64,000 nucleotides of DNA. Origin: a bacterium. Its GTDB lineage: Bacteria; Myxococcota_A; Bradymonadia; UBA7976; UBA1532. The notes beneath the pieces were generated by a model that was not told the DNA's origin, ran no database searches, and worked only from the letters and a program-made list of their open reading frames with translations. Shown here piece after piece: positions 1 to 44,546 of this stretch. A program made the translations under genes and the position numbers. How positions within the stretch are numbered: position 1 is the stretch's first letter; each line of letters starts with the position of its first letter. The stretch spans positions 372,001 to 436,000 of the forward strand of contig JAUHXC010000002.1 of assembly GCA_030427205.1 (NCBI GenBank), written 5' to 3'.

Positions 1-1
1 G

Positions 2-3000
2 GAGGCGTCGCTCTTCTTCCTCGCGGTCGGCGACGAGACCGGGGCGGTCTGCGACGGCCTCGAGGTCGATTCGGCCTGCGAAGGCGACACCGACTGCGTG
101 CTCAAGCTGCATCAGGACGAGGTCACGCCGCTGGCCGATGGCGGGACGGTCTTCGACTTCACCGGGCCCGACGGACGCTGCAACGCGGCGACCGGCGACG
201 CCTTCGGCTCGGCGTCGGTCGAGGTCTGCGACGGCATGGACAACGACTGCGACCGGGTGGTCGACGAGGGGATCCCCGGCGTCGGCGACCGCTGCGAAGA
301 CGGCGTCGGCGCCTGCAATGTCGTGGGCGAGCAGGTCTGCGACCCGGCCGCGCGCCAGGTCGTCTGCAACGCCATGCCCGGTCAGCCGCGCGCCGACGAA
401 GACTGTCCGGCGGGCGACGAGACCTGCTGTGACGGGATCGACGACGACTGCGACGGCGCCGTCGACGAGAACATCGCGTGCAGCCCCTGCGCCGACGACG
501 CCGAATGCGCCGACAACGTCGCCGGTCAGCAGTGCGTCGAGGGGCGGTGCCGGTTGTGTGATCCCAACGACCACGCGGGCTGCGCCGACACCGAGCTGTG
601 CTGCGGCGTCGGCGGCGCGTTCGGCTGCGAGCCGGTCTCGTTCGGCCCGGCGGACGGCGAGCAGTGCGCCGCCTGCGGCACGCCCTGCGCGGTGGTCCGC
701 GACGGTGAGTCGCTCGCGAACGCCGACAACTGCACCGATCGCACGTGCCAGTGCGGGTTCGGCCCGGCCTGCGCCGATCCCAGCCCGTTCTGCGTCGGCG
801 GCGCCTGCCTCGAGTGCCTGGGCAATGACGACTGCGAAGCGAACGAGCTGTGCTGCGACGGCCGCTGCGAGCCGACGGGCCCCGAGACCCAATGCGACGC
901 CTGCGGCGAACCGTGCGATGTGGCGGTCTCGAACCGCTGCGTCGACCGCCAGTGCCGCTGCGGCGAAGCCGAGCAGTGCGTCGGCGCGCGCGCCGCGTGC
1001 ATCGCCAACTCGGCGTGCGACGACGACCCGGGCAACCCGGCCTGCTCGCCGCGCAGCTTCGAGTGCGAAGAGTGCTTCGCCGATCTCGACTGTCAGGAAG
1101 ACGGCGACGCCAGCCCCGAGCCGGCGTGTGTCGATCGCCAATGCCGCGAGTGCAAGTCCGATGACGACCGCTTCTGCGCCGGCCCGTCGGCGGCCGATGG
1201 GCGCCCCGAGTGCGTGATCAACGACTGCTTCGAGTGCGACCGGCGCAACCACGACGGCTGCGCCGAGGACGGCGACGCGCCGTTCTGCGACGTCGACCAG
1301 AATACGTGCCGCCAGTGCCGTGACGACGCCGAGTGCCAGTCGCGGCCCGGCGACCTGAACCAATGCGTCCAAGGGCGTTGCGTGGTCTGCGATCCCGAGA
1401 CCTACGAAGGCTGCCCCGATCCCGAGAGCCCGATCTGCGATCGCGGCTCGCTGACCTGCCAGCCGTGCCAGACGACTGAGCAATGCAACGCGAACAACGA
1501 GCCCGACGACCTCGAGACCGAATGCGTCGAGGGCCAGTGCCGCGGCTGCAACCCCGACGGCAACCAGGGCTGCGGCTCGATCGGGCCGACCCCGATCTGC
1601 AATCCCGACACCCTCGTCTGCCGCGGCTGCGCCGGTGACGACGAATGCCCCAGCGTCGCGCCCGGCTCCGCCGAGGACGCCGATCGCGACGGCGACGGCC
1701 CGATCGCCCCGGCAAGCGCCAGCCCGTTCTGCGTCGACCGCCAGTGCCGGGAGTGCAACCCCGACAGCCACGGCGGCTGCGATCAGGAGGGCCCGCGGCC
1801 CATCTGCCGCGCCGGTGACTGCCGAGCCTGCGAGCGGGACGCCAACTGCCTCGAGCGGCCCGGCAACCTCGACCAGTGCATCCCCGATGGCCCGGCCGCG
1901 GGTCTGTGCAAGCTGTGCGACCCGGCGGACAACGCGGGCTGTGATGATCCCGCCGCGCCGGTGTGCGATCCGCAGACCTTCACGTGCGTGGGCTGCGCGG
2001 AAGACGCCGAGTGCAATCGCGGTCGGGATCCGGGCCTGGCGTCGCTCGAGTGTGTCGCCGGCCTGTGCAGCCAGTGCGATCCCCGCGACGGGCAGCTCAA
2101 CGTGGGCTGCGACCCGCTCTCCGACGTGCCGATCTGCGACGGTGAGCGCAACTTCTGCCGGACGTGCATCTCGTCGGCCGAGTGCGTGGGGCTGCGCGAC
2201 GATCGCGGGGTCCCCGTCGATCTGCCCGGCTGCGTGGAGGGCGCCTGCACCGAGTGCGACCCGGTGACCCAGCTCGGCTGCCCCGATACGCAGATCTGCG
2301 CGCCGGACGGCCGATGCCGCGCCTGCACCGTGGACGCCGACGACCCGCTCAACCGCGCCGGCGACGCCGAATGCGCCCAGGGCGAGGGCGATCGCGACCA
2401 GTGCGTGGACGGCGTCTGCGAGGTCTGTGACCCCGTCGACTTCGCGGGGTGCAACCCGGCCAGCGGCGCGCCGGTCTGCGACGCCGGCAGCAAGACCTGC
2501 CGTGGGTGCGAGCCCGACGCCGAGTGCGAAGCGGGCGACAACCGGCCGGTCAACCCCGTCGGGCAGCAGTGCGTCGCCGGCTTCTGCCGCGCCTGCGATC
2601 CGAGCGACGGCGCGCGCAATGCCGGCTGCGATCCGGTCGGGACGACCCCCTTTTGCGACCCCGACCAGTTCAACTGCGGCCCGTGCGGCACCGGGGTCGA
2701 GGGCGATGATACCCGCTGCGAGGACAACGCGGGCGTCGGGCTCGACCAGTGCATCGGCGAACGCTGCGCGCAGTGTGATCCCAACAACCACGATGGCTGC
2801 GCCGAAGCCGACGGGCCGCCGTTCTGTGATCCCGGGCGCGCGGTCTGCCGCGCGTGCGGCAACGACGCCGAGTGCTTCATCCGGCCGGGCAACCGCGACC
2901 AGTGCGTGGGCGGCCAGTGTGTGGTCTGTGATCCGGCGGACGACGCGGGCTGCAACAACCCGAACCGGCCCGTCTGCGATGATGCCCAGCGTACGTGCCG

Positions 3001-6000
3001 ACCGTGTGCGGCCGACAACGAGTGCCCCGGCGCCTTGCTGTGCGTGACGGGCCGCTGCGTGCAGTGCGACCCGGGCGACAACCGCGGGTGCGACGTGGCC
3101 AGCGGCACGCCTTTCTGCGACCCGGGCAACTCGACCTGCCGCGCGTGCCGGCTGCTCGACGACGACGAGACCGGAGATCCGCGGGATACCGAGTGCGTCG
3201 GCGCCGACTTGCCCCAGTGCGTCGGCGGCAGCTGCAACGAGTGCGACCCCGCGACCCACGACGGGTGCGCCGAGGATGGCCCGACGCCCTTCTGCGCCAA
3301 CGGGCAGTGCCGGGCTTGCGGCAACAACGCCGAGTGCGTGCTGCGGCCGGGTGACCTGGACTATTGCAGCGCGGGCGAGTGCGTCGAATGCAACCGCGAC
3401 ACCGAGGCCGGCTGCCCGGGCGACTCGCCGGTGTGCGACGACGATCTCCAGTCGTGCCGGCGCTGCCGCAACAGCACCGAGTGCGTCGGCAACCAGGAGT
3501 GCGTCGACGGGACCTGCGTCGGCTGCGCGCCGGGCACCAACGACGGTTGCGACGAGGCGAGCACCGCGCCGTTCTGTGATGGCGGGACGCTCGTATGTCG
3601 GGCGTGCGCCGTGGACGGCGAGTGCGCGGGCAACCCGAATGGCGACCAGTGCTACGCCGATCGCTGCGTCGAGTGCGACCCGAGCGGGGCGCAGCAGGTC
3701 GGCTGTAATGTAGGCAGCACCGAGCCCTTCTGCGCGTCGGATGGCGAGTGCCGCGAGTGCCGCGCCGACGCCGAGTGCGTGATCGCCCCGGGCGATCGTG
3801 ATCAGTGTGTCGGCCGGCGCTGCGAGGTCTGTGATCCCGCCGACGACGCCGGCTGCGAGCCGACGAGCGATACCCCGGTCTGCGGAGGCGCGGCGGGCAA
3901 TCGCAGTTGCCGCGGCTGCAATAACGACGGCGAGTGCAGCGAGAACCCGAGCGGCGATGAGTGCGTGGGCGGTTCGTGCGTGCAGTGTGATCCGGCCAAT
4001 AACAACGGCTGTGATCTCGGCGGCGCGGCGCCGGTCTGCAACGCGCAGTCCCGGACCTGCGTGCCGTGCGAGCGCGATGCCGACTGTGGGGGCAACCCCA
4101 ACGGTCGCCAGTGCGTGGCCGGGGCCTGTGAGCAGTGTGATCCGGCCGACAGCACGGGCTGTGGCGAGCGGGACGCGAACCCGATCTGTGACCCGGCCAC
4201 CAAGTCCTGCGTCGGCTGCACCAACAACGCCCAGTGCATCCTCCGGCCGGGCGACCTCGACGTCTGCGTCGGCCCCGAGTGCAAGCTCTGCGATCCGGCG
4301 ACGAACCTCGGCTGTGGCGGGGTCACGCCCATCTGCGACGACGGCGACGCCTGCGTCGGCTGCACCGAGAACGACGAGTGCGGCGTGGGCATCCAGTGCC
4401 TGCCCGATGGCTCGTGCGCCGGCTGCAACCCGGGCAATAACGCAGGCTGCCTGGCCGACAGCCCGATCTGCGACGCCGGCGACCGCCGCTGCCGTCCGTG
4501 CCGTGACGACGCCGAGTGCAACGGGGGCTACTGCTTCGCCGGCCGCTGCGAGGTCTGTGATCCGGAGGGTCACGCCGGCTGTGGGTCCGACCAGCTCTGC
4601 TGCCAGAACGGCGCGATCTTCAGCTGCGCGGAGACGACGCCCGGCACCCAGTGCGCCGCCTGCGGTGTCGCCTGCGATGCCGATGGGGATCCGGCGACCA
4701 ATGGCAGCAACGTCTGCGCCGATCGCACCTGCCGCTGCGGCGCGCTGGTCGAGTGCCAGGATGATCAGCCGTACTGCCTCGGTGACCACCCCGACGGGGC
4801 CTGCTCGGAGTGCCGCGACAATGGCGACTGCGACGCGCTGAGCGATACGCCCATCTGCGGGGGCGACGTGCAGGGCAACGACAGCAATACCTGTCGCGAG
4901 TGCGCCAACGACGACGAGTGTCGTGGCCATCAGCGGGGCGAGCAGTGCGTCGCCAGCGGCGCGTGCCATGTCTGCGATCCGGTGGACGACGCCGGCTGCG
5001 TGGCGGGCAGCAACCGCCCCGTGTGCGGCGATGACTTTACTTGCCGTGGTTGCCGGAACGACGTGGAGTGCGCCGACAACCCCAACGGCGGGCAGTGCGT
5101 GCGCAACCGCTGCGTGCAGTGTGATCCAGCCGGGGACGCCGGCTGCGATGACCAGAGCAACGCCCCGGTCTGCATCGACGGCAACGTGTGCGGTTGCGCC
5201 GAGGACAGCGATTGCAACGGCAACCCCGTGGGCGACCAGTGCGTGGGCGTCATCTGCGCCGAGTGCGACCCCGACGCTGTGGGCGGTCTCGCCGCCGGCG
5301 GCTGCGACCTCGACAGCGATACGCCGTACTGCAGCCCGCAGAGCCTGACCTGCGTCGGCTGCGCCGGCGACGACAACCGCTGCCCCCAGGGTACGCTGTG
5401 CGACGGTGAGCGCTGTGTCCCCTGCCTGCTCGGATCCCACGACGGGTGCAACGCCGACGAGCTGTGCTGCGGCGCCGGCGGTCAGCGCGCTTGCCAGGCG
5501 GCCGATACCGACGCGTGCACCGCCTGCGCGGGCGGCGGATGCGATCCCGAGGTCGCCAACGCCTGCGACGAGCGCGAGTGCCTGTGTGGCGCCGAGCCGG
5601 CGTGCGAGGGCGGCCAGGTCTGCGCCGGCGGGGTCTGCGCCGAGTGCCGGGACGATGTCGACTGCCAGGGGGCCAACGGCCGGCCCATCTGCGACGACGG
5701 CACCTGCCGTGAGTGCGTGACCGAAGGCAACCGCGGGTGCGACCCCGACTCCGATGCCCAGATCTGCGGCACGGACAATACCTGCGTCGCCTGTGATGAT
5801 CCCGACGCCCCGATCGGCGCGTGCGCCGCGGATCCCGACCTCGGCAACCTCTGCGTCCTGAGCACCTGCCAGGTCTGCAACCCCGACAACCACGCCGGCT
5901 GCGCGGCGGACGAGTTGTGCTGTTCGGCGGCGATCGACGCGCCGCCGACGTGTGTCCCGGCCGACGAGGATCGCTGCGACGATTGCCTGCGCGCGCTCGG

Positions 6001-6052
6001 ACGTTGCAATGAGGGGCAGGTGTGCGAGAATCGCGAATGTGTCGACCCGTGA
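2..6052 (+). CDS. Giant secreted Cys-rich tandem-repeat protein with MopE-like metal-binding motifs (5' end outside window)
   Basis: Frame is open from base 2 (EASLFFLAVGDETGAVCDGLEVDSACEGDTDC...), so the listed start at 98 is not the true start. Two motifs CDGMDNDCDRVVDEG / CDGIDDDCDGAVDEN, then about 30 modules (count by eye) of type C..D.EC....QCV.G.C..CDP....GC.....P.CD....C..C. Confidence 0.9.
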   Translation, partial: EASLFFLAVGDETGAVCDGLEVDSACEGDTDCVLKLHQDEVTPLADGGTVFDFTGPDGRCNAATGDAFGSASVEVCDGMDNDCDRVVDEGIPGVGDRCEDGVGACNVVGEQVCDPAARQVVCNAMPGQPRADEDCPAGDETCCDGIDDDCDGAVDENIACSPCADDAECADNVAGQQCVEGRCRLCDPNDHAGCADTELCCGVGGAFGCEPVSFGPADGEQCAACGTPCAVVRDGESLANADNCTDRTCQCGFGPACADPSPFCVGGACLECLGNDDCEANELCCDGRCEPTGPETQCDACGEPCDVAVSNRCVDRQCRCGEAEQCVGARAACIANSACDDDPGNPACSPRSFECEECFADLDCQEDGDASPEPACVDRQCRECKSDDDRFCAGPSAADGRPECVINDCFECDRRNHDGCAEDGDAPFCDVDQNTCRQCRDDAECQSRPGDLNQCVQGRCVVCDPETYEGCPDPESPICDRGSLTCQPCQTTEQCNANNEPDDLETECVEGQCRGCNPDGNQGCGSIGPTPICNPDTLVCRGCAGDDECPSVAPGSAEDADRDGDGPIAPASASPFCVDRQCRECNPDSHGGCDQEGPRPICRAGDCRACERDANCLERPGNLDQCIPDGPAAGLCKLCDPADNAGCDDPAAPVCDPQTFTCVGCAEDAECNRGRDPGLASLECVAGLCSQCDPRDGQLNVGCDPLSDVPICDGERNFCRTCISSAECVGLRDDRGVPVDLPGCVEGACTECDPVTQLGCPDTQICAPDGRCRACTVDADDPLNRAGDAECAQGEGDRDQCVDGVCEVCDPVDFAGCNPASGAPVCDAGSKTCRGCEPDAECEAGDNRPVNPVGQQCVAGFCRACDPSDGARNAGCDPVGTTPFCDPDQFNCGPCGTGVEGDDTRCEDNAGVGLDQCIGERCAQCDPNNHDGCAEADGPPFCDPGRAVCRACGNDAECFIRPGNRDQCVGGQCVVCDPADDAGCNNPNRPVCDDAQRTCRPCAADNECPGALLCVTGRCVQCDPGDNRGCDVASGTPFCDPGNSTCRACRLLDDDETGDPRDTECVGADLPQCVGGSCNECDPATHDGCAEDGPTPFCANGQCRACGNNAECVLRPGDLDYCSAGECVECNRDTEAGCPGDSPVCDDDLQSCRRCRNSTECVGNQECVDGTCVGCAPGTNDGCDEASTAPFCDGGTLVCRACAVDGECAGNPNGDQCYADRCVECDPSGAQQVGCNVGSTEPFCASDGECRECRADAECVIAPGDRDQCVGRRCEVCDPADDAGCEPTSDTPVCGGAAGNRSCRGCNNDGECSENPSGDECVGGSCVQCDPANNNGCDLGGAAPVCNAQSRTCVPCERDADCGGNPNGRQCVAGACEQCDPADSTGCGERDANPICDPATKSCVGCTNNAQCILRPGDLDVCVGPECKLCDPATNLGCGGVTPICDDGDACVGCTENDECGVGIQCLPDGSCAGCNPGNNAGCLADSPICDAGDRRCRPCRDDAECNGGYCFAGRCEVCDPEGHAGCGSDQLCCQNGAIFSCAETTPGTQCAACGVACDADGDPATNGSNVCADRTCRCGALVECQDDQPYCLGDHPDGACSECRDNGDCDALSDTPICGGDVQGNDSNTCRECANDDECRGHQRGEQCVASGACHVCDPVDDAGCVAGSNRPVCGDDFTCRGCRNDVECADNPNGGQCVRNRCVQCDPAGDAGCDDQSNAPVCIDGNVCGCAEDSDCNGNPVGDQCVGVICAECDPDAVGGLAAGGCDLDSDTPYCSPQSLTCVGCAGDDNRCPQGTLCDGERCVPCLLGSHDGCNADELCCGAGGQRACQAADTDACTACAGGGCDPEVANACDERECLCGAEPACEGGQVCAGGVCAECRDDVDCQGANGRPICDDGTCRECVTEGNRGCDPDSDAQICGTDNTCVACDDPDAPIGACAADPDLGNLCVLSTCQVCNPDNHAGCAADELCCSAAIDAPPTCVPADEDRCDDCLRALGRCNEGQVCENRECVDP

Positions 6053-6065
6053 TCAGGAGGAGCGC

Positions 6066-6890
6066 GTGAGGCAGCGCAGAACTCGACTTCGCTCAGCGCG
6101 CACGCGGGCTGCGTGCCTCGCCCTCGGGCTCGCCTGCGCGGCTGGAACGAGCCCGATGCTGCCGGGCGTGGCGCTGGCCCAGGAGTCGATGGCCGGGCCG
6201 CAGACGATGGACGAGGCCCGCGACCAGGGCGTGCTCTACTTCCGCAAGAAGCGGTTCCGGCAGGCGATGCCCTTGCTCGACAAGGCGTACGGCATGCCCG
6301 GCGGGGCCCAGGACTTCGCTGTCGTCTTCTACCGGGGGCGCACCGCCCAGAAGCTGCTGCTGCTCGAGAAGGCCTTCGAGATGGCGTCCCTCGCCGCGAC
6401 CCTCGCCGGCGACGACCGGCGCCGGGCGGCCAACGCCAAGGAGTTCCAGACCGAGCTGGACAGCCTGTTCGGCAAGCTGACGCTCAAGGCGGCGGAGGGC
6501 GAGACCAACGCCAAGGGGCGGATCTTCTTCGAGACCAAGACCGGGATCATCAATCGGGCGAAGAAGAAGCAGTTCGCCACGATTCAGGAGCGCTTCAAGA
6601 CCACCGACATCACCCTGCCGACGACGGTCTACCTGCCCTATGGCGACTACCTGGCCAACAAGGTGCCCGTCGCCATCGTTCAGGGTGAGGCCGCCCCGGA
6701 GATCGAGATCTTCCTGCAGGTTCAGAAAGGCGAGGAAGACGACGATACGCTGATGTGGGTCGGCATCGGCGCGGGCACCGCGGCCGCGGTCGGTCTCGGC
6801 GTGACCGCCTTCCTGCTCTGGGGCCAGCCCGAGGACGAGACCTTGGAGCAGCTGCGCATCGGGCTGCCCGGCGAGGGCGGCGGGCAGTAG
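6066..6890 (+). CDS. Secreted/membrane TPR-like protein with C-terminal TM segment (paralog of 9283..10062)
   Basis: GTG start with AGGAGG just upstream; signal-like N-terminus; EARDQGVLYFRKKRFRQAMPLLDKAYGM; C-terminal LMWVGIGAGTAAAVGLGVTAFLLW. Starts 13 nt after the Cys-rich gene. Confidence 0.85.
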   Translation: MRQRRTRLRSARTRAACLALGLACAAGTSPMLPGVALAQESMAGPQTMDEARDQGVLYFRKKRFRQAMPLLDKAYGMPGGAQDFAVVFYRGRTAQKLLLLEKAFEMASLAATLAGDDRRRAANAKEFQTELDSLFGKLTLKAAEGETNAKGRIFFETKTGIINRAKKKQFATIQERFKTTDITLPTTVYLPYGDYLANKVPVAIVQGEAAPEIEIFLQVQKGEEDDDTLMWVGIGAGTAAAVGLGVTAFLLWGQPEDETLEQLRIGLPGEGGGQ

Positions 6891-6920
6891 GGCGGCGGGC
6901 AGTGAGCCGGCGGGCAGTGA
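6876..6920 (+). repeat. 15-bp x3 tandem repeat spanning the stop codon of the TPR-TM gene
   Basis: GGCGGCGGGCAGTAG / GGCGGCGGGCAGTGA / GCCGGCGGGCAGTGA read directly; each unit ends in an in-frame stop. Confidence 0.85.
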
Positions 6921-6924
6921 GCCC

Positions 6925-7488
6925 CTACTCGCGGCAGTCGTCCTGCAGCGCCTCCGGCAGCAGCATCTGACCCGAATAGGGGTGAATGATCCCATTCGCC
7001 ACGACGATCGGCGCGCCTACGGTCTGGCCGTCGACGAGCAGGTTGTCGAAGTCGCCGTCGAGGCTGACCCAACCGAAAGACGACACCTGCATCTCCGGCT
7101 GCTCGGAGTCGGCGACCGTGCCCAGGTCGTCTCGGGAGTAGGCCCGCCCGCCCAGAGGGATCTGATGCCGCAGCGCCAGCCGGAGGCTGCCGTTGCTGGT
7201 CCACCGGCTGCGGCAGCGGCTGGGGATGGCACCCACCGCGCTGTTGTCGGGCACGAAGATCGTGACTTCCGGGCGCGCCATGAGACCCGCGAGGCTGTCG
7301 TCCCCCTCGTCGCCGAGTGAACCGAGCAGCTCGGCGTATGCGCTGTAGGCCGGGCGTTCGAGGACGTCGGCGATGCTGGGCGGCGACGGCGGCGGATCGT
7401 CCATCGGTTCCTCCTCGCCACAGCAAGCCAGCAGGGCCAACGCGCTCAGCGCGAGCCCCGTCGAACGGACGAAGGCGAGTCGAAACAT
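6925..7488 (-). CDS. Fasciclin (FAS1)-like lipoprotein
   Basis: Lipobox-like LALLACC; FAS1-type segments VTIFVPDNSAVGAIP and GAPIVVANGIIHPYSGQMLLPEAL. Confidence 0.75.
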   Translation of the reverse strand: MFRLAFVRSTGLALSALALLACCGEEEPMDDPPPSPPSIADVLERPAYSAYAELLGSLGDEGDDSLAGLMARPEVTIFVPDNSAVGAIPSRCRSRWTSNGSLRLALRHQIPLGGRAYSRDDLGTVADSEQPEMQVSSFGWVSLDGDFDNLLVDGQTVGAPIVVANGIIHPYSGQMLLPEALQDDCRE

Positions 7489-7530
7489 GGCGTCATCTCC
7501 CGATGTCGGTCGTTGCGGGCCAGGGATACA

Positions 7531-9057
7531 TCACGGCGCCGGCTGACATCTAGCGGTATATGGCTCGACGAGGAAAACGCCGCCCATGATGTGCACGACC
7601 CCGTTGGCCATCGGCACCGAGCGCAGCAGCGGCAGATCGTCGAGCAGGAGCCCCCCGTCATCGCCCCGGCGGACCACGACGTTTCCGCCCGACTCCATAG
7701 CGAGTGGAATGCCCTCGGGGACCTCGTCGGCGGTCTCTGCGAGCAGCTCGGCGGTCAGCACCTCCCGCTGGTTGCCGAACGTATGGTGGTCGATGAAGCG
7801 TTGGCCGTTGACGATGATCGCGTTGCGGCAGCCGGCCGACAGCGCGCCCAGCGCCTCATTGCTCGGGGCGAAGAACGTCACGACGCCCTCGGCGCCCTCT
7901 CCGCCTTCCAGGTTGCTCAGATCGGCGGCCTCGCCCATGACCCCGATCAGCTCCCACAAGACCTCCAGGTCCGCCTCGGCCGCCAAGACCGCCGTCCCGT
8001 TCGGCTGCAGGCATGCCCGGTCGGCGCAGACCTGCCCCTCGGGACACGGCACGCCGCACGCAGAGCAACCCACGAGCGGGTCGGTCGGCGCGCATGCGTA
8101 GGGCGAAGGTTGCTGGTCGGGCCCTTCTGGCGGCCGACAACACAGCTCGGCTGCCCCGCAAGCCCTATGGTCCACGGCGCCGCACGCGCGGCAGACCCCG
8201 TCGTCGCAGAGGTCCTGCCCGCAGTCCGCGTCGACTGCGCAAGGGCCGCAGATCCCCGCCTCGCTGCAGGCTTGCCCCGCTGCGCACTCGGCGCGGTCGC
8301 GGCACTCGATCTCCAGGCAGACGCCCGCCTCGCACAAGCGCCCATCGCAGTCGTCGCGGCCGCGACACTGTATGTCCAGGCAGAGGCCCGCCTCGCACAG
8401 CAGCCCAGCGCAGTCGCCCTGATCGCGGCACTGGATGTCCAGGCAGAGACCCGCTTCGCACAGCAGCCCGCCGCAGTCGTCCTCGTCGCGGCACTGGATG
8501 TCCAGGCAGACGTCGGCTTCACACAGCCGCCCGTCGCAGTCGTCGCGGTCGCGGCACGGGAGGCACGCGCCGTCCGCGCATCGCTCGCCGGCGCACTCGT
8601 CGTCTGCCATACACGCTCGGCAGCGCCCGTCAGCCCCGCAGATGCCATCGCATTGAGTATCGTCCTGGCAGGGCAGGCCCAGATCCGGCTGCGCGTCCGG
8701 CTCTCCTGCGTCTGCGGGCGTCGCATCCGCCCGGGTCGCATCCATCGGCGGCGTCATGTCGGCCATACCCGAGTCCGCCGGTGTCGCATCGGTCGGCGGA
8801 CGCCAGTCCGACATCCCGCCGTCCGTCGGCGCCGCGTCCTCGGGCGACGCGTCGTCTCGCAGATCCGCGTCCGCGCGCCCCCGGTCGACCTGTACGCCCT
8901 CGTCGGGATCGCCGACATCCGATCCGCTGTCCCCGTCCGGTGATGGACCGCGATCGGGCTCGGCTGCATCCATCGAACCCAGCGGGAGACCGTCCCCATC
9001 ACACGCTGCCAGTCCGAAGAACAACGCGATCACTACCGTTGCGGTTTGTCGGCCCAA
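7531..9057 (-). CDS. Cys-rich repeat protein with C-terminal fasciclin (FAS1) domain
   Basis: Lipoprotein-like N-terminus (FFGLAACDGDG), 21-aa Cys repeats (CRDRDDCDGRLCEADVCLDIQ...), then VTFFAPSNEALGALSAGCRNAIIVNGQRFIDHHTF...NGVVHIMGGVFLVEP. Confidence 0.85.
   Translation of the reverse strand: MGRQTATVVIALFFGLAACDGDGLPLGSMDAAEPDRGPSPDGDSGSDVGDPDEGVQVDRGRADADLRDDASPEDAAPTDGGMSDWRPPTDATPADSGMADMTPPMDATRADATPADAGEPDAQPDLGLPCQDDTQCDGICGADGRCRACMADDECAGERCADGACLPCRDRDDCDGRLCEADVCLDIQCRDEDDCGGLLCEAGLCLDIQCRDQGDCAGLLCEAGLCLDIQCRGRDDCDGRLCEAGVCLEIECRDRAECAAGQACSEAGICGPCAVDADCGQDLCDDGVCRACGAVDHRACGAAELCCRPPEGPDQQPSPYACAPTDPLVGCSACGVPCPEGQVCADRACLQPNGTAVLAAEADLEVLWELIGVMGEAADLSNLEGGEGAEGVVTFFAPSNEALGALSAGCRNAIIVNGQRFIDHHTFGNQREVLTAELLAETADEVPEGIPLAMESGGNVVVRRGDDGGLLLDDLPLLRSVPMANGVVHIMGGVFLVEPYTARCQPAP
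8303..8560 (-). repeat. 63-bp tandem coding repeat (21 aa, about 4 copies)
   Basis: Conserved ...CACTGGATGTCCAGGCAGAG... recurs at a 63-nt period (8303, 8366, 8429...). Confidence 0.8.
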
Positions 9058-9282
9058 GACGCTCTCCCCTGCCGGCTGGTCCGTGCCCCATGATGCGCCA
9101 CAACCGTCGCTTCATGCGAGCACATCGCGTCGAGCCCAGGGCGACCCGCCGCCTTGGGGCCCGCGTATCGTGGGCGGTCGACCGGCTCCCGGCGAGCGGG
9201 CCGTCGGCGAGATCGCCCGGGGACCTTTCCATCGACGCCCGGTCGGCTATACTCCCCCTGCGCCAACTGCTGGGAGCGCTCG

Positions 9283-10062
9283 ATGATCCGCCGAATCGCC
9301 CTGACCCTCGCCCTCGGCGCGCCGCTGGCCCTCGGGCCGGTGACGCCGGCGGCGGCCCAGCAGAGCGGCCGGCTCGTCGAGACCCGGGACCAGGGGGTCC
9401 TCTACTACAAGAAGAAGCGGTTCAAGCAGGCCCGGCGCTACCTCGACCGGGCCTACGCGATGAAGGGCGGACCGGGCGACTTTCCGACGGTGTACTACCG
9501 CGGCATGACCGCGTTCGTGCTCGGTCAGGTCGACCTGGCGTACGAGATGATGACCGTCGCCGAGCGGCTCGCCGTCGATGATGCGCGCAAGCGCCGGGTG
9601 AAAGATCTGGGCAACCGGATCCGCGAGCTCTACGGCCCGGTGACGTTCAAGGCCTCGCCCAACGAGACCAACTCCCGCGGGCGGATCTTTTTCGAGGCCA
9701 AGACCGGCATCATCAACAAGGACAAGAAGGAGCGCTTCGCCGCGGTGCAGGAGCGCTACCAGACCACGTCGGTCGAGCTGCCGGCGACGCTGATGCTGCC
9801 CTATGGCGAGTTCACGGCCAACGGCATCCCCTTCACCGTGGTGGAGCGCGCCGAGAAACCGCCGGTCGTCGAGATCTTCCTGCAGGTGGTCGACGAAGAC
9901 GAGGGCGGCGCATCGGTCGGTGGCCTGGATACGTCGACGTGGGTGTGGATCGGCGTCGGCGCGGCCGCCGCTGTGGGCATCGGCGTCGGCGCGGCCCTCC
10001 TGCTCGGCGGCGATGAAGACCCGCCCCCCGAGTCTGCCGACCTGAGGCCGGATTTCCGGTAG
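9283..10062 (+). CDS. Secreted/membrane TPR-like protein with C-terminal TM segment (paralog of 6066..6890)
   Basis: MIRRIALTLALGAPLALGPVTPAAAQ signal peptide; ETRDQGVLYYKKKRFKQARRYLDRAYAM; shared block NETNSRGRIFFEAKTGIINKDKKERFAAVQERYQTT; C-terminal VWIGVGAAAAVGIGVGAALLL. Confidence 0.87.
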   Translation: MIRRIALTLALGAPLALGPVTPAAAQQSGRLVETRDQGVLYYKKKRFKQARRYLDRAYAMKGGPGDFPTVYYRGMTAFVLGQVDLAYEMMTVAERLAVDDARKRRVKDLGNRIRELYGPVTFKASPNETNSRGRIFFEAKTGIINKDKKERFAAVQERYQTTSVELPATLMLPYGEFTANGIPFTVVERAEKPPVVEIFLQVVDEDEGGASVGGLDTSTWVWIGVGAAAAVGIGVGAALLLGGDEDPPPESADLRPDFR

Positions 10063-10150
10063 CCTCCTCGCCGCCCCGCATGGGGCGCGCACCGTTGAGC
10101 GGCGGTATGATATTTATGGAGAGTCGTTCGGCCTCGACCCCGGGGGGTTC

Positions 10151-13100
10151 ATGGACTCGCGCTCACCGCTCGACCTCCGGGTCGGTCTTCTCGCCCTGAT
10201 TCTGGCGGCGTCTGCCGTTGGCTGTGAAGGCACGCCGGCCACTGCGCCCGCCGGCATATCGTTCTCACTCGAGGTCTGTGCGCCCCGCGCCGAGGGTGAT
10301 CAGGCCACGGGTTGTCGCGCCCGACTCGCCGGGGCCAGCATGTGCCTGGTCTTCGTGCCCGGGGACGATCCGACGCGGGCCCGGCGGATGCCGCTCGCGG
10401 TCCAACTCGGGGGCGCGATCGAGCCCGTCGACGACACCACGCTGAACGTGCAGGCCGGCGAGATCGCGCGGGCCTCCATCTTCGTCTTCCGCGATGCCAT
10501 CGACTGCGGCGCGCTCGAGATCGAGCGCATGTGCACGGCGGCGGATGGCTGCATCGCCCGCTACGGCCCGGTGGACGAGATCATGACGCCCGGCGCCACG
10601 ACGACGTTCGACTTCACCGTGGACGGCGTCTGTCAGGCACAGCGGCCGGATGACCCGGGTGAAGCCCTCCGGGAGATCTGCGGCGACGGGATCGACAACG
10701 ACTGTGACGGCGCGGTCGATGAAGAGTTGAGGGTCACGTGCAGCGTGGGGCTGGGCGAATGCCGCACCGAGGGGCAACGGCAGACCTGCACCGACGGGGT
10801 ATATGCCTGCGACGCGATCCCCGGCCCCCGGCAGTCCGACGCCAACTGCAACGGGCTCGACGACGACTGCGACGGCGTACCCGATCAGGCCGGAGATTGC
10901 GACAGCTGCCTCTTCGACAATGACTGCCTGTCGATGCCGGGAATGGGGCAGTGCGTCGACGATACCTGCGTCGAGTGCGATCCGATGGACAACGCCGGCT
11001 GTGAAGCCGAGGCGCCGGTGTGCAACGCTGCGACGCTCACCTGTGGGCCATGCGTGAACGATGGCCAATGCCGGGGGGGCGTCTGCGTCGACGGGGCGTG
11101 CCGGGCGTGTGATCCGGCGCGGTCTCGCGAGACCTGCGCCGAGACCCCGGAGACGCCGATCTGCGACGCCGAGGGCTTCGAGTGCCGGCCGTGCATGGTC
11201 GGCCCGGACTGCGAGGGCGACTTCTGCTTCCAGGGCCGCTGCGTCGAGTGCGACCCCGTCGGCAACGCCGGCTGCGAGGAGCCCACCTTCATCTGTGATG
11301 GTAACCGCTTCGAGTGTCGGACCTGCGAGCGCAACATCGAATGCGAGACGCGGGATCCGGCGAACCCGGTCTGCACCGACGGCGTCTGCGCCGAGTGCAC
11401 CGTCGGCAGCAACGACGGCTGCAGCGATCCCACCCGGCCGGTATGCATCTCCGATCCGCCGGGTTCGGCGGCGCGGTGCAGCCCATGCACCCGCGACGGC
11501 GACTGCTCGACCGATCAATGCAGCCCGGATGGGCGCTGCGTCGGCTGCGATCCGCAAACCCAAGCCGGCTGCGAGCCGCTGGGCGGACAGCCGATCTGCG
11601 ACGCGGACGAGTTCTGCCGCCCCTGCGTGGCAGACTTCGAGTGCCCGGGTGACGCGGTGTGCAGCGGCGGCGCCTGCCGGGAGTGCGCCGACGCAGACGC
11701 GCGCGGCTGCGCCGAGGACGGCGCCGAGCCGATCTGCGACGGCGGGAGCTGCCGACCCTGCGCGGCCGACGCCGAGTGTGCGCTGCGACCGGGAGAGCGC
11801 GAGCTCTGCGTCGAAGGTCGCTGCGCGCCGTGTGAACCCGAGACCAACCGCGGCTGCGCCGACCCGACCCCCGTATGTGGTGAGGAGGGCTGCCGGGCCT
11901 GCCTCGACGACGCCGAATGCCCGGGGCGCAGCCAGTGTGTCGACCGCGTCTGCCAGACGTGTGATCCGGCCGACAACGGCGGGTGTACGCCCGAAGCGCC
12001 GATCTGCGCGCGAGATGGCAGCCGCTGCGAGCCCTGCAACGCCGACGGGCAATGCCCCGGGGCCGACATCTGCGTCGGCGGGCAGTGTGTCGAGTGCGAT
12101 CCGATGACCAACCGGCCGTGCCTCGCCGACGGGCTCGCGCCGATCTGTGACCGCGCGACGGCGACCTGTGTCGCCTGTTCGGACGACGCGTCGTGCGGTG
12201 GGCTGCAATGCCTGCCCGATGGCCGGTGCACCGAGTGCGATCCCAACAATGGCGACGGCTGTGAGGCTGATCCTGCCCGCCCGATCTGCGGCGCTGATGG
12301 CGTTTGCCGGGGCTGCGGGGCCAATAGCGACTGCACCGACGCCGGCCTCGAACCGTTCTGTGACGTGCGCACCGAGCGCTGCGTGACCTGCGTCGAGGGC
12401 ACGAACGCCGGCTGTGATCCGAGCGGCACCAGCCCCATCTGCCAGGCGGGCAGCCAATGCCGCGGCTGCCGCGGTGACGAGTGCGGCGACGGCCTTCAGT
12501 GCCTCGCCAACGGCGCCTGCCGGGGCTGCAACCCGGATGGCAACGTCGGTTGCGGTGGAGATACGCCCATCTGCCAGAACGGGCAATGCGTGCCCTGCGT
12601 CAACAATGGTCAATGCGATACCCGGCCGTTCCTCTATTGCGTGCAGGGGCGCTGCGGAGAGTGTGCGCCGCCAGCCCCGGAGAACGACGGGCTCGGCCAG
12701 GGCTGCGATACCGACAGTGATCGACCCTTCTGCTCTGTGCGCGGCGACTGCATCCGCTGTGGCGCTGCCGAACAGAGCTGCGAAGACCTGGACGATGGGC
12801 GGGACTACTGCGTCGCCAACGGTCAGTGCGTCGCGTGCAACCCCGACCTGGACGCCACCGGGTGCAACGTGAACGGGGGGGAGCCGGCGTGCGACGCGCT
12901 CGACTATACGTGCCGCCCCTGCGAGAACCACGGCGAGTGCGGCGAGCTCTTCTGCGACGCGGGTCGCTGCGTCGCGTGCGCCCCCGATGGCAACCTGGGC
13001 TGTGACATTGCTGGGGTAGATCCCATCTGCTACCCGGGCAACCCCTATGCCTGTGGCGGGTGTGGCCGCGACGATCAATGTGACGGCAACCCCAACGGGA

Positions 13101-13270
13101 CGGACTGTCGCAGCGGAAGCGGTCGGTGCGGCTGTGGTGACGATGGCGATTGTACCGACAGCCCCTACGGCGATCGCTGCAGGGGCAACGGCCTCAACCG
13201 CCGGTGCGGGTGCGCCGGCAACGGCGACTGCCCGGACGGGTCGAACTGCGCGGGCGGGCGCTGTCAGTAG
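10151..13270 (+). CDS. Large secreted Cys-rich repeat protein with MopE-like motifs
   Basis: Signal/lipoprotein N-terminus (LILAASAVGCEG); CGDGIDNDCDGAVDEE, CNGLDDDCDGVPDQ; repeated CDP...GC....P.CD.....C..C modules like 2..6052. Confidence 0.9.
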   Translation: MDSRSPLDLRVGLLALILAASAVGCEGTPATAPAGISFSLEVCAPRAEGDQATGCRARLAGASMCLVFVPGDDPTRARRMPLAVQLGGAIEPVDDTTLNVQAGEIARASIFVFRDAIDCGALEIERMCTAADGCIARYGPVDEIMTPGATTTFDFTVDGVCQAQRPDDPGEALREICGDGIDNDCDGAVDEELRVTCSVGLGECRTEGQRQTCTDGVYACDAIPGPRQSDANCNGLDDDCDGVPDQAGDCDSCLFDNDCLSMPGMGQCVDDTCVECDPMDNAGCEAEAPVCNAATLTCGPCVNDGQCRGGVCVDGACRACDPARSRETCAETPETPICDAEGFECRPCMVGPDCEGDFCFQGRCVECDPVGNAGCEEPTFICDGNRFECRTCERNIECETRDPANPVCTDGVCAECTVGSNDGCSDPTRPVCISDPPGSAARCSPCTRDGDCSTDQCSPDGRCVGCDPQTQAGCEPLGGQPICDADEFCRPCVADFECPGDAVCSGGACRECADADARGCAEDGAEPICDGGSCRPCAADAECALRPGERELCVEGRCAPCEPETNRGCADPTPVCGEEGCRACLDDAECPGRSQCVDRVCQTCDPADNGGCTPEAPICARDGSRCEPCNADGQCPGADICVGGQCVECDPMTNRPCLADGLAPICDRATATCVACSDDASCGGLQCLPDGRCTECDPNNGDGCEADPARPICGADGVCRGCGANSDCTDAGLEPFCDVRTERCVTCVEGTNAGCDPSGTSPICQAGSQCRGCRGDECGDGLQCLANGACRGCNPDGNVGCGGDTPICQNGQCVPCVNNGQCDTRPFLYCVQGRCGECAPPAPENDGLGQGCDTDSDRPFCSVRGDCIRCGAAEQSCEDLDDGRDYCVANGQCVACNPDLDATGCNVNGGEPACDALDYTCRPCENHGECGELFCDAGRCVACAPDGNLGCDIAGVDPICYPGNPYACGGCGRDDQCDGNPNGTDCRSGSGRCGCGDDGDCTDSPYGDRCRGNGLNRRCGCAGNGDCPDGSNCAGGRCQ

Positions 13271-25451: not shown

Positions 25452-25619
25452 GCGGAGACAGCACACCCCGCCCATCGCGACTGGGACCTGCACGTCCCAC
25501 CCCTGCCGCGCTTCGCCGGTCACATCCCGCCAGACCCCGCAGCCTGCGGTCGTCAACGCCGCCACCGGGCTATGGCACGGCGCTTGCTGAATGATGAGAC
25601 CGTCTCTGGGAGGCGGCTC

Positions 25620-27230
25620 ATGGCGCGTTCATTCCTGACCCACGGTGCATACGCGGCGCTGCTGCTCGCCGCCGCGACGCTCGGCTGCGCCGAGGCCGAA
25701 GCGCCCGTCGATCCCCCCGAAGCGGCGGCGCCGCCTCCCCTGCCCGAGAAGCCGCCTGCGCCTCCGCAGGGCCCGATCGCGGCGCCCGACGGCAAAGCCC
25801 CCGATACGACGCAGCCCCCCGTCGACCCGTGCGGTGAGCTGGGGTTCGAGGGTCGCTGCGACGGCGATCTGGCGGTGTGGTGTGAGGATGGCGACGTGCG
25901 CAGCGTCGACTGCGCCGCGTACGGCACCGCGTGCGCGTATATCGACCCGGCCACGGGCTACTACTGCGAAGCCCAGCCGCCCGAGCCGCCGGCGCCGGGC
26001 AGCCCCGACGAGAATGGACAGGACGATCGTGCGCCCGGTGAGCCGGCGCCGGATCCCGAGCCGCCGGCGCGGGATCCGGACCCCGCGCCGGCACCGGCGC
26101 CCGGCGAGCCTGCGCCCGGCGAGCCTGCGCCCGGACCGGGCAAGATCCCCGACGGTCAGCCCGATCCGAGCCCCAGCCCCAGCCCCAGCCCCAGCCCCAG
26201 CCCGAGCCCGAGCCCCGCGCCGGAGCGTACCCCGGACCCGGCCCCCGAGCGCGCGCCCGACCCGGCGCCCAGCCCGGAGCGCCAGCCCGATCCGGCCCCG
26301 GACGCGGCCTGCGGCAGCGAGAGCTACGAGGGCCGCTGCGACGGCGATGTGGCCATCTGGTGCGACGAGGGCCGCCTCGCGCGCTTCGACTGCCGGCGCC
26401 GCCTCGACGTCGGCTGCGGCTGGGTCGACGCCGAGACCGGGTTCTTCTGCCGTCGCGACGATGCCCCTGGCCCGGCGCCCGAGCGCACCCCGGATCCGCA
26501 GCCGGAGCCTCAACCCCAGCCGGAGCCTCAGCCCCAACCTCAGCCCGACCCCCAACCCCAGCCCGAGCCGGAGCCCCAGCCAGACCCGCAGCCTCAGCCT
26601 GAGCCTCAGCCCCAGCCAGACGGCGGCTGCGACGGACTGGACTACCTCGGGCGCTGCAACGGCGACGTCGCCGAGTGGTGCCAGGACGGGCAGCTTCAGG
26701 CCTACGACTGCGGCAATGGCGATCAGACCTGCGGCTACATCGACGACGCCATCGGCTACTACTGCGTCGACCGGGGCGCCGAACCCGAGCCCCAGCCACA
26801 GCCCCAACCCGAGCCCGAGCCCGAGCCTCAGCCTCAGCCCGAGCCGCAGCCCGAACCCGAGCCCCAGCCGGACGGGGGCTGCGGCGACGTCGACTTCCTC
26901 GGCGAGTGCCGCGGCACCGTCGCCGTGTGGTGCCAGAACGGCGCGCTCGATCAGGTCGACTGCGCCACCCGCGGCCAGGCCTGCGGCTGGGTCGATGCCG
27001 ACGTCGGCTACTTCTGCACCGACCCCGCGGCCGAGCCGCCTCCCCCGCCCGAGCCCGAGCAGCCGCCCGCCCAGCCGGACGCCGGCTGTGGCGACATCGA
27101 CTTCCTCGGCGAGTGCCGCGGCGACGTCGTCGTGTGGTGCGACGACGGCGCGCTGACCCAGGTGGACTGCGCCGCCCGCGGCGAGACCTGCGGCTGGGTC
27201 GACGACGCGACCGGAAACTACTGCCAGTGA
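25620..27230 (+). CDS. Lipoprotein-like protein with five Cys-rich modules separated by Pro-rich linkers
   Basis: Five copies of C(G/D)..(F/Y)(L/E)G.C.G..(A/V).WC..G.L...DC.....CG(W/Y)(V/I)D...G(Y/F)(Y/F)C joined by (PS)n and PQPEP linkers. Confidence 0.85.
   Translation: MARSFLTHGAYAALLLAAATLGCAEAEAPVDPPEAAAPPPLPEKPPAPPQGPIAAPDGKAPDTTQPPVDPCGELGFEGRCDGDLAVWCEDGDVRSVDCAAYGTACAYIDPATGYYCEAQPPEPPAPGSPDENGQDDRAPGEPAPDPEPPARDPDPAPAPAPGEPAPGEPAPGPGKIPDGQPDPSPSPSPSPSPSPSPSPAPERTPDPAPERAPDPAPSPERQPDPAPDAACGSESYEGRCDGDVAIWCDEGRLARFDCRRRLDVGCGWVDAETGFFCRRDDAPGPAPERTPDPQPEPQPQPEPQPQPQPDPQPQPEPEPQPDPQPQPEPQPQPDGGCDGLDYLGRCNGDVAEWCQDGQLQAYDCGNGDQTCGYIDDAIGYYCVDRGAEPEPQPQPQPEPEPEPQPQPEPQPEPEPQPDGGCGDVDFLGECRGTVAVWCQNGALDQVDCATRGQACGWVDADVGYFCTDPAAEPPPPPEPEQPPAQPDAGCGDIDFLGECRGDVVVWCDDGALTQVDCAARGETCGWVDDATGNYCQ
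26161..26220 (+). repeat. 6-bp AGCCCC/AGCCCG microsatellite encoding a Pro-Ser linker
   Basis: gagccccagccccagccccagccccagccccagcccgagcccgagcc. Confidence 0.9.
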
Positions 27231-41351: not shown

Positions 41352-44300
41352 CTAATCGACGATGCGCGGCCAGATCACCCCGGGCGTCTGGGGCGGCAGG
41401 TTCTCGCACTCGTCATCGTTGGCGATGCGCAGCCGATAGTCGAGGCGTTCGTCGTCCTCGCCCACCGTATTGATGCTCAGCGGCAGCACCCGCACGAAGA
41501 ACGTGCGGTTGACGTCGCTGGGCTCGATGACCACGCATTGCTTCGAATTGCCGCGGGCGATCTCGGACGTCGTCGCCCGCAGCATCTCGTCGTCGTCGAA
41601 GACTTCCACGTAGAGATCGCCGTCGTCGCCGAAGACGAAGCTGGCCGCGACGGCCCGCGCCTCGCCGGGCGGCACGGTGAAGAGGAACGTATCGACGTCC
41701 TGCGGCGCGCGCACGCACAGCCACTGCTCTTCACGGTCGATCTCGTTGCGGCCGAGCAGCTCGGCCTCGCCGAAGTCGGTATTGGGCTCGTCGGGGTCGT
41801 CGTCGCAGACGAAGACCCGCTCTTCGACGGTCAGCTCGAGGTCGTAGCGCACCGTGGGATCACCCAGGCCGCTGACCCGCACGAAGTAGACCCCCGGCGC
41901 CCGGTTGTCGATGCGCACGACCTCGTCGTCGGTGGCGCTGTGCCCGTCGGGCAGCTCGCCGTTGAGCGAGACCGGGTCGCCTTCGTAGAAGAGGTCGAGC
42001 TCGAGGTCGCCCTGCACGTGCACGAAGCGCAGCGCCACCTCGATGGTCGCGAGGGTGTCGGTCTCGAAGGTGAACCAGTCCTCGTCGCCGTCGGGCCCGC
42101 ACAGGGTCAGATCGGCGTAGCGGCCGGGCGCGATGTCGGTGGAGGCGACCCGCACGTCGTTGCCGCCGTCGCTGTCGAAGTCGTCGGGCGCGCACTCGAT
42201 GAGCCCGGCGGTGCGCAGCACGTCGAGGTCGTAGCCGGTGCGCACCTCGGCGGCGGCCTGCACCCGCACGAGGTAGCGGCCGCCGGCGGCGCCGTCGAAG
42301 CGGGCGACGTTGATCCGCTGGCCGCTGCGCCCGCTCTGGATGAGCGCGCCGAACGGGTCGCGCAGCTCGATGATGGTATCGCCGGCGATCTCGGGTTCGA
42401 GCCGGGTGACCCGCACCTCGAGCTCGTCCCCCGGGCGCAGCGTCAGGCTGTACCAGTCTTCTTCGGCGCACAGCGTGCGACCGGGCAGCGTCAGGTCGAT
42501 GTCGGGGCGCAGCTCGAGGGTGCCGTCGATGCCCGGGCGCACGAACTCGGGCACGGCCATCAGGTCGTAGGCGGTCTGGGCCACGTCGTTGGGCTCGGCG
42601 TCGTCGGGCAGGCACAGCACGCCGTTGCGGTCGACGGTCACCGTCAGGCGGTAGCGCCCGAAGCGGGCCGCGTCGAGCCCGGCCACCCGGATGTAGTAGC
42701 GGCCGTCTTCGATCTGCGCGTTGAACCGCGGGGCGTCGAACTGCACGAAGCGCGGCCCGTCGACGCCGCCGCCGCCGCCATTGGGCACCGCGACCGGCGC
42801 CTCGCCGGGCCCCGGGGCGCCGGGGCCGAAGATCTCGAAGTCGAGGTCATCGCTGGCCCCGGTGTCGTTGCCCAGCATCTCGAGGCGCACCTGCAGGCCG
42901 TCGCGGGCCCCCATGTCCAGGGCGAACCAGTCCTCGTCGTTGGGGTGGATCGTCCGGTTCTCGATGATGACCGACTGCTGCTCGTCGGGCAGCGAGAGCG
43001 AGGTCGCGGTGACCGGCGCGTCGTCCACTTCGGCGGCGTCAGGGCCGATAGCGCCCGACAGCTCGATGTCGAGGGCGTAGGTATTCTCGTCGAGCCCGCG
43101 GGGGAAGACCTCGACCCACCACGTGCCGGCGGGCGACGGGTTGCCCGGGCCGGCGACGTACTCGATCAGCTCGTCGTCGTCGCTGCTGTCGCCGCGGCCG
43201 GCGACGCGGCCGTCGGGCGCGTGCAGCCGCATGTCCAGGTCGCCGTCGCCGTGCGCGAAGGTCAGCGCGACCTGGATCGAGGTGCCGGCGCTCGGCGTCT
43301 CGAAGCGATACCAGTCGGCGTCGCGGCGGCAGGCGTACAGGCCCTCGGCGGAGAAGCGGTCGCCGTCGAACGCGAGCGGCGGCGCGTCCTCGCGGGCGTC
43401 GTTCTCTTCGTAGTCGTCGTCGCGGCAGCCCTCGACGCAGCGGCCCTCGATGCAGGCCAGGTCGTCGGGGCACTCGCCGTGGGCCAGGCACGGGGGCTCG
43501 CAGACGCCGGCTTCGCAGATCCAGCCCTCGCCGTCGTCGGCGCACTCGGCGTCGTCGCGGCAGGGCTCGTCGGGGCCGTCTTCGGGCTCGCAGCGGTTGG
43601 CTTCGTTGCAGATCTCACCCCGCGGGCAGTTGTCGGGGTCGCGGCGGCAGCCGGGCAGGCAGACGTCGAGGCTGCAGAAGAGCGTCGGGCCGCAGTCGTC
43701 GTCGGTGGCGCACGGCGGGCGCTCGCAGTTGCGGGTCTCGGGGTTGCAGATCCGCTCGCGACCGCAGGCGCCGCCTTCGAGGCGGCAGCCCTCGGCGCAG
43801 AAGCCGTCCTCGCAGTACGCGTCGTCAGCGCAGTCGAGGTCGTCGGCGCAGCGCAGCGCGCAGGGGTTGGGGTTGACGCAGTTGAGCAGGCCTTCGATGG
43901 GTGCGTCGCACGCCGTCGGCAGCTCCAGCGAGCAGCTGTCGTCGGCGCTGCAGCAGACGACCTGAACCGCGCACTCGCGGGTGTCGGGGTCACAGGCACG
44001 CGGCTCGCCGTTCATCGTGCGCGGGCAGGCCTCGGGATCATCGAGGCGGCAGCCGGGCTGGCACTCGGCGCCGTCGCAGTATTCGCCCGGGAAGCACTCG
44101 CTGTCTTCGGCGCAGCTCGGATCGCGCTCGCAGAACCGCGGCTCGGCCTCGGTATTGCACCGCTCGCCGATCGGGCAGCCGCCCTCCCGGCACCCGGGCA
44201 CGCAGATCGCCGGCTCGCCGCCCACCGCCATCGGACAGTACTGCTCGGCGGGGCATTGGTCGTCGCGCACGCAGCGCACGCCGACGTCCGGATCGGGCGG

Positions 44301-44447
44301 CGGCTCGCCGTCGAGCGCGGTCTCGGCGTCCATGCCGGCGTCGGGCGTCGGCGTATCTACCGGCTCGTCTTCTCCACCGCAGCCCCAGGCGAGCAGGGCC
44401 ACGGTGAGCCACAGCGCCGACCCGGCCTGTGCTCGAAGGTGCACCAT
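41352..44447 (-). CDS. Large Cys-rich lipoprotein with pre-peptidase C-terminal (PPC)-like domains
   Basis: LTVALLAWGCGGED lipobox; N-terminal C..D.QCP..QYC modules; repeated DADWYRFETPSAGTSIQVALTFAHGDGDLDMRLHAPDG-type blocks. Confidence 0.85.
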   Translation of the reverse strand: MVHLRAQAGSALWLTVALLAWGCGGEDEPVDTPTPDAGMDAETALDGEPPPDPDVGVRCVRDDQCPAEQYCPMAVGGEPAICVPGCREGGCPIGERCNTEAEPRFCERDPSCAEDSECFPGEYCDGAECQPGCRLDDPEACPRTMNGEPRACDPDTRECAVQVVCCSADDSCSLELPTACDAPIEGLLNCVNPNPCALRCADDLDCADDAYCEDGFCAEGCRLEGGACGRERICNPETRNCERPPCATDDDCGPTLFCSLDVCLPGCRRDPDNCPRGEICNEANRCEPEDGPDEPCRDDAECADDGEGWICEAGVCEPPCLAHGECPDDLACIEGRCVEGCRDDDYEENDAREDAPPLAFDGDRFSAEGLYACRRDADWYRFETPSAGTSIQVALTFAHGDGDLDMRLHAPDGRVAGRGDSSDDDELIEYVAGPGNPSPAGTWWVEVFPRGLDENTYALDIELSGAIGPDAAEVDDAPVTATSLSLPDEQQSVIIENRTIHPNDEDWFALDMGARDGLQVRLEMLGNDTGASDDLDFEIFGPGAPGPGEAPVAVPNGGGGGVDGPRFVQFDAPRFNAQIEDGRYYIRVAGLDAARFGRYRLTVTVDRNGVLCLPDDAEPNDVAQTAYDLMAVPEFVRPGIDGTLELRPDIDLTLPGRTLCAEEDWYSLTLRPGDELEVRVTRLEPEIAGDTIIELRDPFGALIQSGRSGQRINVARFDGAAGGRYLVRVQAAAEVRTGYDLDVLRTAGLIECAPDDFDSDGGNDVRVASTDIAPGRYADLTLCGPDGDEDWFTFETDTLATIEVALRFVHVQGDLELDLFYEGDPVSLNGELPDGHSATDDEVVRIDNRAPGVYFVRVSGLGDPTVRYDLELTVEERVFVCDDDPDEPNTDFGEAELLGRNEIDREEQWLCVRAPQDVDTFLFTVPPGEARAVAASFVFGDDGDLYVEVFDDDEMLRATTSEIARGNSKQCVVIEPSDVNRTFFVRVLPLSINTVGEDDERLDYRLRIANDDECENLPPQTPGVIWPRIVD

Positions 44448-44546
44448 CAGGGCTTCCTCTCCTGGCTGGATTCCGCCTCGTGCGAATAATTGCAGTTGCA
44501 CGAGAACGTTTCAACCGGGTTGGAGCCCGCGGGGCCGTGGGGGACG

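Follow-up and report, generated by a model that had tools for sequence, protein, structure and literature searches.

The window analysed here is a 64,000-nt stretch (G000:C26:372001-436000) of a Myxococcota genome of 11.4 Mb in 100 contigs. Six genes lie at its beginning, at the coordinates given in the initial annotation, and all six are open and have coding-type GC3. The features are as follows.

1..6052 (+): Cys-rich lipoprotein A; the window edge cuts the N-terminus, and the lipobox, ASMGC, is encoded before the window begins
2..226 (+): 3' end of the sequence coding for the N-domain of A, the remainder being upstream of the window (alignment; HMM matches)
227..466 (+): two MopE-like motifs of A, CDGMDNDCDRVVD at 227-265 and CDGIDDDCDGAVD at 428-466 (PF11617 sub-threshold)
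467..6049 (+): stalk of A, irregular ~50-residue Cys repeats of no Pfam/NCBIfam family
6066..6890 (+): TPR-TM protein A, 274 aa (sequence comparison; AlphaFold model)
6925..7488 (-): small FAS1 lipoprotein, genus-specific accessory (18.0 bits; orthologue above cut-off)
7531..9057 (-): Cys-rich plus FAS1 lipoprotein, 508 aa, genus-specific accessory (17.3 bits; orthologue above cut-off)
9283..10062 (+): TPR-TM protein B, 259 aa (sequence comparison)
10151..13270 (+): Cys-rich lipoprotein B, 1039 aa, 149 Cys, lipobox SAVGC
10223..10651 (+): N-domain of B, spanning roughly aa 25-167 and predicted to fold as a Cys-stapled beta-sandwich (AlphaFold; alignment)

Lipoprotein A starts 350 nt before the window (G000:C26:371651) and has a full length of 2133 aa with 311 cysteines (14.6%). 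A gap of 13 nt separates it from TPR-TM protein A, and 88 nt lie between TPR-TM protein B and lipoprotein B. The swapped partner order described in the initial annotation is real: the lipoprotein precedes the TPR gene in pair A and follows it in pair B, with both pairs on the plus strand. The divergent gene upstream of lipoprotein A (L009:14945-16474, minus strand) resembles exported endonuclease I and is kept in the sister species (L044:14378-15718). Elsewhere in the window, two putative lipoproteins are moderately Cys-rich (41352-44501, minus strand, 5.4% Cys; 25572-27230, plus strand, 5.6% Cys) and have no neighbouring TPR-TM protein of the A/B family. A search of a plasmid collection gave no match.

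Both FAS1 genes score below the PF02469 cut-off of 22 bits, and their sister-species orthologues exceed it (27.3 and 29.0 bits). Their distribution was restricted to the A/B locus in the two genomes of this genus, and no FAS1 gene was present at the other pair loci. FAS1 had been proposed as an adhesion component, which does not hold as a general feature, and we rejected it as a core component because of this confinement.

A common N-terminal domain with exchangeable stalks

Sequence comparison revealed that lipoproteins A and B have Cys-repeat sequence in common. Both had been described as carrying CDGxDxDCDGxxDE motifs and a CDP..GC module; the shared CDP repeats stand, and the MopE-like motifs are reduced to about two per protein, directly behind the N-terminal domain. 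The remainder of each protein consists of irregular C..CDP....GC repeats of ~50 residues (in the stalk of A, 26 C..C[DNES]P modules and 65 CxxC), which were matched by no Pfam or NCBIfam model in scans of whole proteins and fragments. No PF11617 match above the gathering score was obtained for A or B in a full-length scan, and the N-terminal piece of A reached 20 bits against a cut-off of 27. With 147 matches spread over many unrelated ORFs of the own genome, the MopE motif is far too common there to define a system or the pair. The few motifs are what stands of the earlier idea that A and B bind Ca or other metals; the binding role itself is doubtful.

The ~150 aa after the lipobox are common to all 22 partner lipoproteins identified in this study, and seven cysteines are invariant among the 21 aligned members. 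For this N-domain in B, AlphaFold predicts a beta-sandwich, with pLDDT values of mostly 85-95 across aa 61-160. It has no significant solved relative in the PDB by fold or sequence, and Pfam gave no family except the MopE motif at its end. An Ig/FnIII/CBM-like assignment was rejected, as the best Foldseek beta-sandwich matches (E >= 0.15) were not significant. The N-domain is present in 16/16 genomes of the order and, marginally, in 1/42 outside it.

By inspection, a signal peptide with a lipobox Cys is present in every one of the 21 N-domain partners whose start is intact. Together with the cysteine content, this places the lipoproteins outside the cytoplasm, as the initial annotation had supposed. 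Since the stalks of A and of the C87-type protein are about 2000 aa long, they would be extracellular and not periplasmic, and the lipoproteins are probably displayed on the surface.

Different stalks follow the same N-domain. CDP-type repeats occur in the genus of the window and in G008, strict 56-residue MopE arrays in G005 and G011 (14 and 18 PF11617 copies, respectively) and TSP3 repeats in G013 and G014. At the ABC-importer loci described below, the stalk combines short stretches of MopE motifs with tails that are Gly-rich or beta-helix-like. Unlike A and B, other members of the family pass PF11617 strongly. As the N-domain is constant while the C-terminal part is exchanged, it is likely the N-domain that is matched to the TPR-TM protein. 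In G014:C3 (L138), an open frame of 24,861 aa that gave an N-domain-like match was discarded as an artefact of masked (N) bases.

TPR-TM proteins A and B are 48% identical over 258 aa, in agreement with their earlier description as paralogues. Protein A comprises a signal peptide, a TPR region (aa 48-134), a beta-domain (aa 135-220) and a C-terminal TM helix (aa 228-252). AlphaFold models the TPR array with pLDDT ~97, the beta-domain with ~90 and a single C-terminal helix with low confidence. Pfam recognized TPR in A and B as single matches below the cut-offs, and Foldseek matches of the model were TPR proteins (probability 1.00, but E about 2e-3); on the model and these matches, the proteins are assigned the TPR fold. 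The topology is uncertain because acidic residues flank the TM helix on both sides. Pfam found PEGA in 0/22 of the beta-domains, and profile comparison with PEGA proteins matched only near the TM. Of 30 beta-domain positions conserved in paired copies, 13 are changed in unpaired homologues, E146, T147, N148, K166 and F170 among them. The residues kept only in paired copies cluster in the beta-domain and are candidates for a docking surface, although phylogeny confounds this comparison.

Pairing of TPR-TM genes with N-domain lipoproteins

A profile built from the two TPR-TM proteins of the window was searched against the own genome and 95 relatives, and matches with E below 1e-50 were taken as strong. 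Genes around the matches were called region by region with a custom caller, and with a separate greedy caller for low-GC loci. We found 22 strong matches in 15 genomes of one Myxococcota order, covering 13/13 genomes of the family and 2/3 other genomes of the order. G015, the third of these, gave divergent matches only, as did a second copy in each of the remaining two (E 1e-17 to 1e-20), and outside the order the profile gave only marginal matches. Every relative that comes from a named collection is a MAG of uncultured Myxococcota/Myxococcales.

The initial annotation had proposed this search and had asked how often TPR-TM homologues have a Cys-rich neighbour. All 22 strong homologues have a Cys-rich/MopE lipoprotein with the N-domain within two genes; the outcome that the annotation had named as refuting, homologues mostly lacking such a neighbour, was not observed. 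Twelve pairs are adjacent (A and B of the window and C87; three in G001; one each in G008, G005, G004, G011, G013 and G014), and in the other ten, which belong to one conserved cluster, the partners are two genes apart. All four TPR-TM copies of the own genome are paired. Circularity was avoided by building an HMM from the four own-genome N-domains only and running it on all ORFs of the fetched loci, in HMMER with --max since the default filters drop Cys-rich targets. This HMM matched the partner in 17/17 pair loci of other genomes and matched nothing in the 11 loci with unpaired TPR relatives.

The pairs occur in about seven unrelated contexts (A/B, C87, G008, G005, G004/G011, f2 and the ABC locus) and in both gene orders. 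Trees of the TPR-TM proteins and N-domains correlate (r=0.69, reached in 0/5000 permutations; r=0.90 among the eight copies from the own genome and sister species), a correlation that partly reflects shared species history. Because the pairs also go back to a small number of ancestors, the 22 cases lack independence, and the two genes might merely have been co-inherited by descent without any functional tie. We find this hardly credible, because the pair was kept while it changed locus about seven times, multiplied into paralogues, reversed its gene order and had its stalk replaced, and because by arithmetic a random gene would lie within three genes of one of the seven own-genome N-domain genes ~0.5% of the time. 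Functional linkage of the TPR-TM and lipoprotein genes, as first suggested from the duplicated pair, is well supported by their co-occurrence across 15 genomes. This marks the TPR-TM protein and the Cys-rich lipoprotein as a putative two-part envelope module, undescribed so far and predicted from its genes.

Kinase-linked sets and the importer locus

The own genome has three further N-domain lipoproteins. The neighbour of each is a different protein with TPR and/or PEGA and a C-terminal TM, and a Ser/Thr kinase is encoded close by. Comparable sets are found in G001, G004, G006 and G013/G014, and several f2 N-domain proteins have no TPR/PEGA-TM partner. Most N-domain lipoproteins outside family f1 are without an A/B-type partner, which makes the N-domain independent of the A/B-type TPR-TM family; the TPR-TM protein requires a nearby N-domain lipoprotein, and not vice versa. 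Kinases by TPR/PEGA-TM and N-domain genes are arranged as in an operon at L107, L108, L122 and L124 and divergently at L109, L126, L127, L132 and L137. These sets possibly form a second class of module. At L127, which is on a short contig, no TPR/PEGA gene is visible. At L107 (9100-11700, minus strand), the kinase-PEGA-TM gene upstream of the N-domain lipoprotein appears split over several frames and reads as frameshifted, either by an assembly error or by decay.

The location of several N-domain lipoproteins without an A/B-type partner in apparent kinase-TPR/PEGA-TM operons, or by divergent kinases, agrees with trans-envelope sensing. The ectodomain would then sense surface conditions or contact, and the TPR(/PEGA)-TM protein would pass the signal through the inner membrane, with the Ser/Thr kinase as receiver in class-2 loci. 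However, the A/B, C87 and ABC loci have no kinase, and the predicted cytoplasmic tails of the TPR-TM proteins are short (about 15-25 aa), acidic and unconserved. Kinases are also common in these genomes, and the adjacencies listed are raw observations. We consider sensing an unlikely role for the pair.

In 10 genomes, the pair lies in clusters of the order SBP5-OppB-OppC-OppD-OppF-(TPR-TM)-PD40 propeller-PEGA protein-lipoprotein-TPR. The best scores of the substrate-binding protein are with NikA/Opp families but stay below the cut-off, and the PD40 propeller is TolB-like (83 bits). In other orders, the transporter/TPR/PD40 cluster is present without the lipoprotein, and its TPR protein (about 390-420 aa) has a barrel-like, mostly Phe-terminal C-terminus, as judged from sub-threshold OMP/autotransporter matches. 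This Opp/Nik-type ABC importer/TPR/TolB-like PD40 cluster is phylum-wide in Myxococcota (L110, L112, L114-L117; L016, L045, L050). At L113:819-4522 (G259, another order), a TPR protein adjoins a MopE-rich lipoprotein without N-domain, possibly a parallel case. In family f2, a divergent TPR-TM copy lies at the ABC locus without a lipoprotein, and 2/3 of the f2 genomes have a paired copy elsewhere. The importer cluster is likely the ancestral locus of the pair, and we infer that the TPR-TM family derives from it.

MopE and TSP3 motifs bind ions in other proteins. An accessory role in uptake would have the lipoprotein gather metal ions or peptides at the outer membrane for the Opp/Nik-type importer, with the TPR-TM protein and the TolB-like propeller as a periplasmic bridge and with A/B and C87 as spin-offs. 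The ion-binding motifs, the importer genes beside 10/22 pairs, the best-scoring families of the substrate-binding protein and the outer-membrane-barrel-like end of the TPR protein in other orders all fit such a role. It nevertheless appears rather improbable, as 12/22 pairs are not near a transporter, metal motifs are few in A and B, the three f2 ABC loci are without a lipoprotein and the barrel matches are sub-threshold.

Comparison with known systems and a model for the pair

None of the known systems tested (TraAB, Glt, Tol and MopE) matches the pair. TraA/TraB, which mediate outer-membrane exchange in Myxococcus xanthus, are the closest working analogy; they also combine an envelope Cys-repeat stalk protein with a dedicated neighbour gene in a member of the Myxococcota. 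TraA has a Cys-rich stalk, a type I signal, PA14, TIGR04201 repeats and MYXO-CTERM, and TraB is its overlapping operon partner with an OmpA domain (PMC3325183). All defining features that could be tested fail here. Pfam found no PA14 domain in A or B, NCBIfam scans of whole proteins and fragments with the TIGR04201/TraA models gave only TraA at E 0.41, and the partner of A and B is a TPR-beta-TM protein rather than one with an OmpA domain. The pair instead has an N-terminal lipid anchor and a new N-domain.

This analogy (PMC3325183), together with the FAS1 lipoproteins between the pairs in the own genus, is what favours a stalked receptor and operon partner for cell-cell recognition or adhesion. 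The reading is very improbable given that PA14, MYXO-CTERM and OmpA domains and a significant TraA/TIGR04201 match are absent and that FAS1 is limited to the genus.

The other likenesses are partial. MopE of Methylococcus and PF11617 share the CDGxDxDCDGxxDE motif, in the arrays of G005 and G011, but A and B have only ~2 sub-threshold motifs. The myxobacterial gliding complex Glt/Agl likewise combines TPR proteins (GltC/D/E) with an OM lipoprotein (CglB) in one envelope system (PMC3169522); no NCBIfam gliding family matched any scanned component, and no AglRQS-like motor was present at the pair loci. The propeller of the ABC locus resembles TolB, but its 83 bits are far under the equivalog cut-off of 343, the window locus has no propeller and no TolQRA/Pal neighbours were seen. 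The SBP_bac_5 and BCDF genes of the ancestral locus resemble Opp/Dpp/Nik importers, but the window pair has left that locus, and the TPR-TM protein and lipoprotein are not parts of the described systems. In the library searched, we found no paper on the TPR-TM/N-domain lipoprotein module and nothing on point about MopE/Cys-rich lipoproteins or PEGA/TPR pairs in Myxococcota.

We interpret the locus, with a probability of about 0.5, as two paralogous copies of a two-gene envelope module made of an OM lipoprotein and its dedicated TPR-beta-TM partner. The first gene would encode the lipoprotein, in which a conserved N-domain, a beta-sandwich stapled by disulfides, precedes an extended ectodomain that is rich in disulfides and interchangeable. 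The second would encode an exported TPR and beta-domain protein held in the membrane by one C-terminal helix. Its TPR/beta part may dock the N-domain in the periplasm, and docking could chaperone or position long-stalk lipoproteins or couple them to the inner membrane. The part in assembly, anchoring or export that the initial annotation proposed for the TPR-TM proteins is likewise conjectural. In the own genus, the module would have been copied out of the ABC-importer-linked ancestral locus and the stalk enlarged to about 2000 aa for surface display. A more specific version is tentative, possible rather than probable: a TPR protein of the importer cluster may have lost its barrel-like C-terminus, gained a TM helix and become a generic dock for the N-domain with interchangeable stalks of up to about 2000 aa, giving a lineage-specific trans-envelope display module.

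Large Cys-rich/MopE-type proteins are very numerous in Myxococcota, and we know of no route, anchor or role for them. One class of these proteins can now be defined by its N-domain, and it has a lipid anchor and a partner gene that is obligate. The constant N-domain and exchangeable stalk suggest that the N-domain is likely the handle and the stalk likely the payload. The connection of the module with the phylum-wide cluster of ABC importer and TolB-like genes offers a starting hypothesis for its origin and role, and deleting one small gene would allow the assembly and function of this Cys-rich class to be tested.
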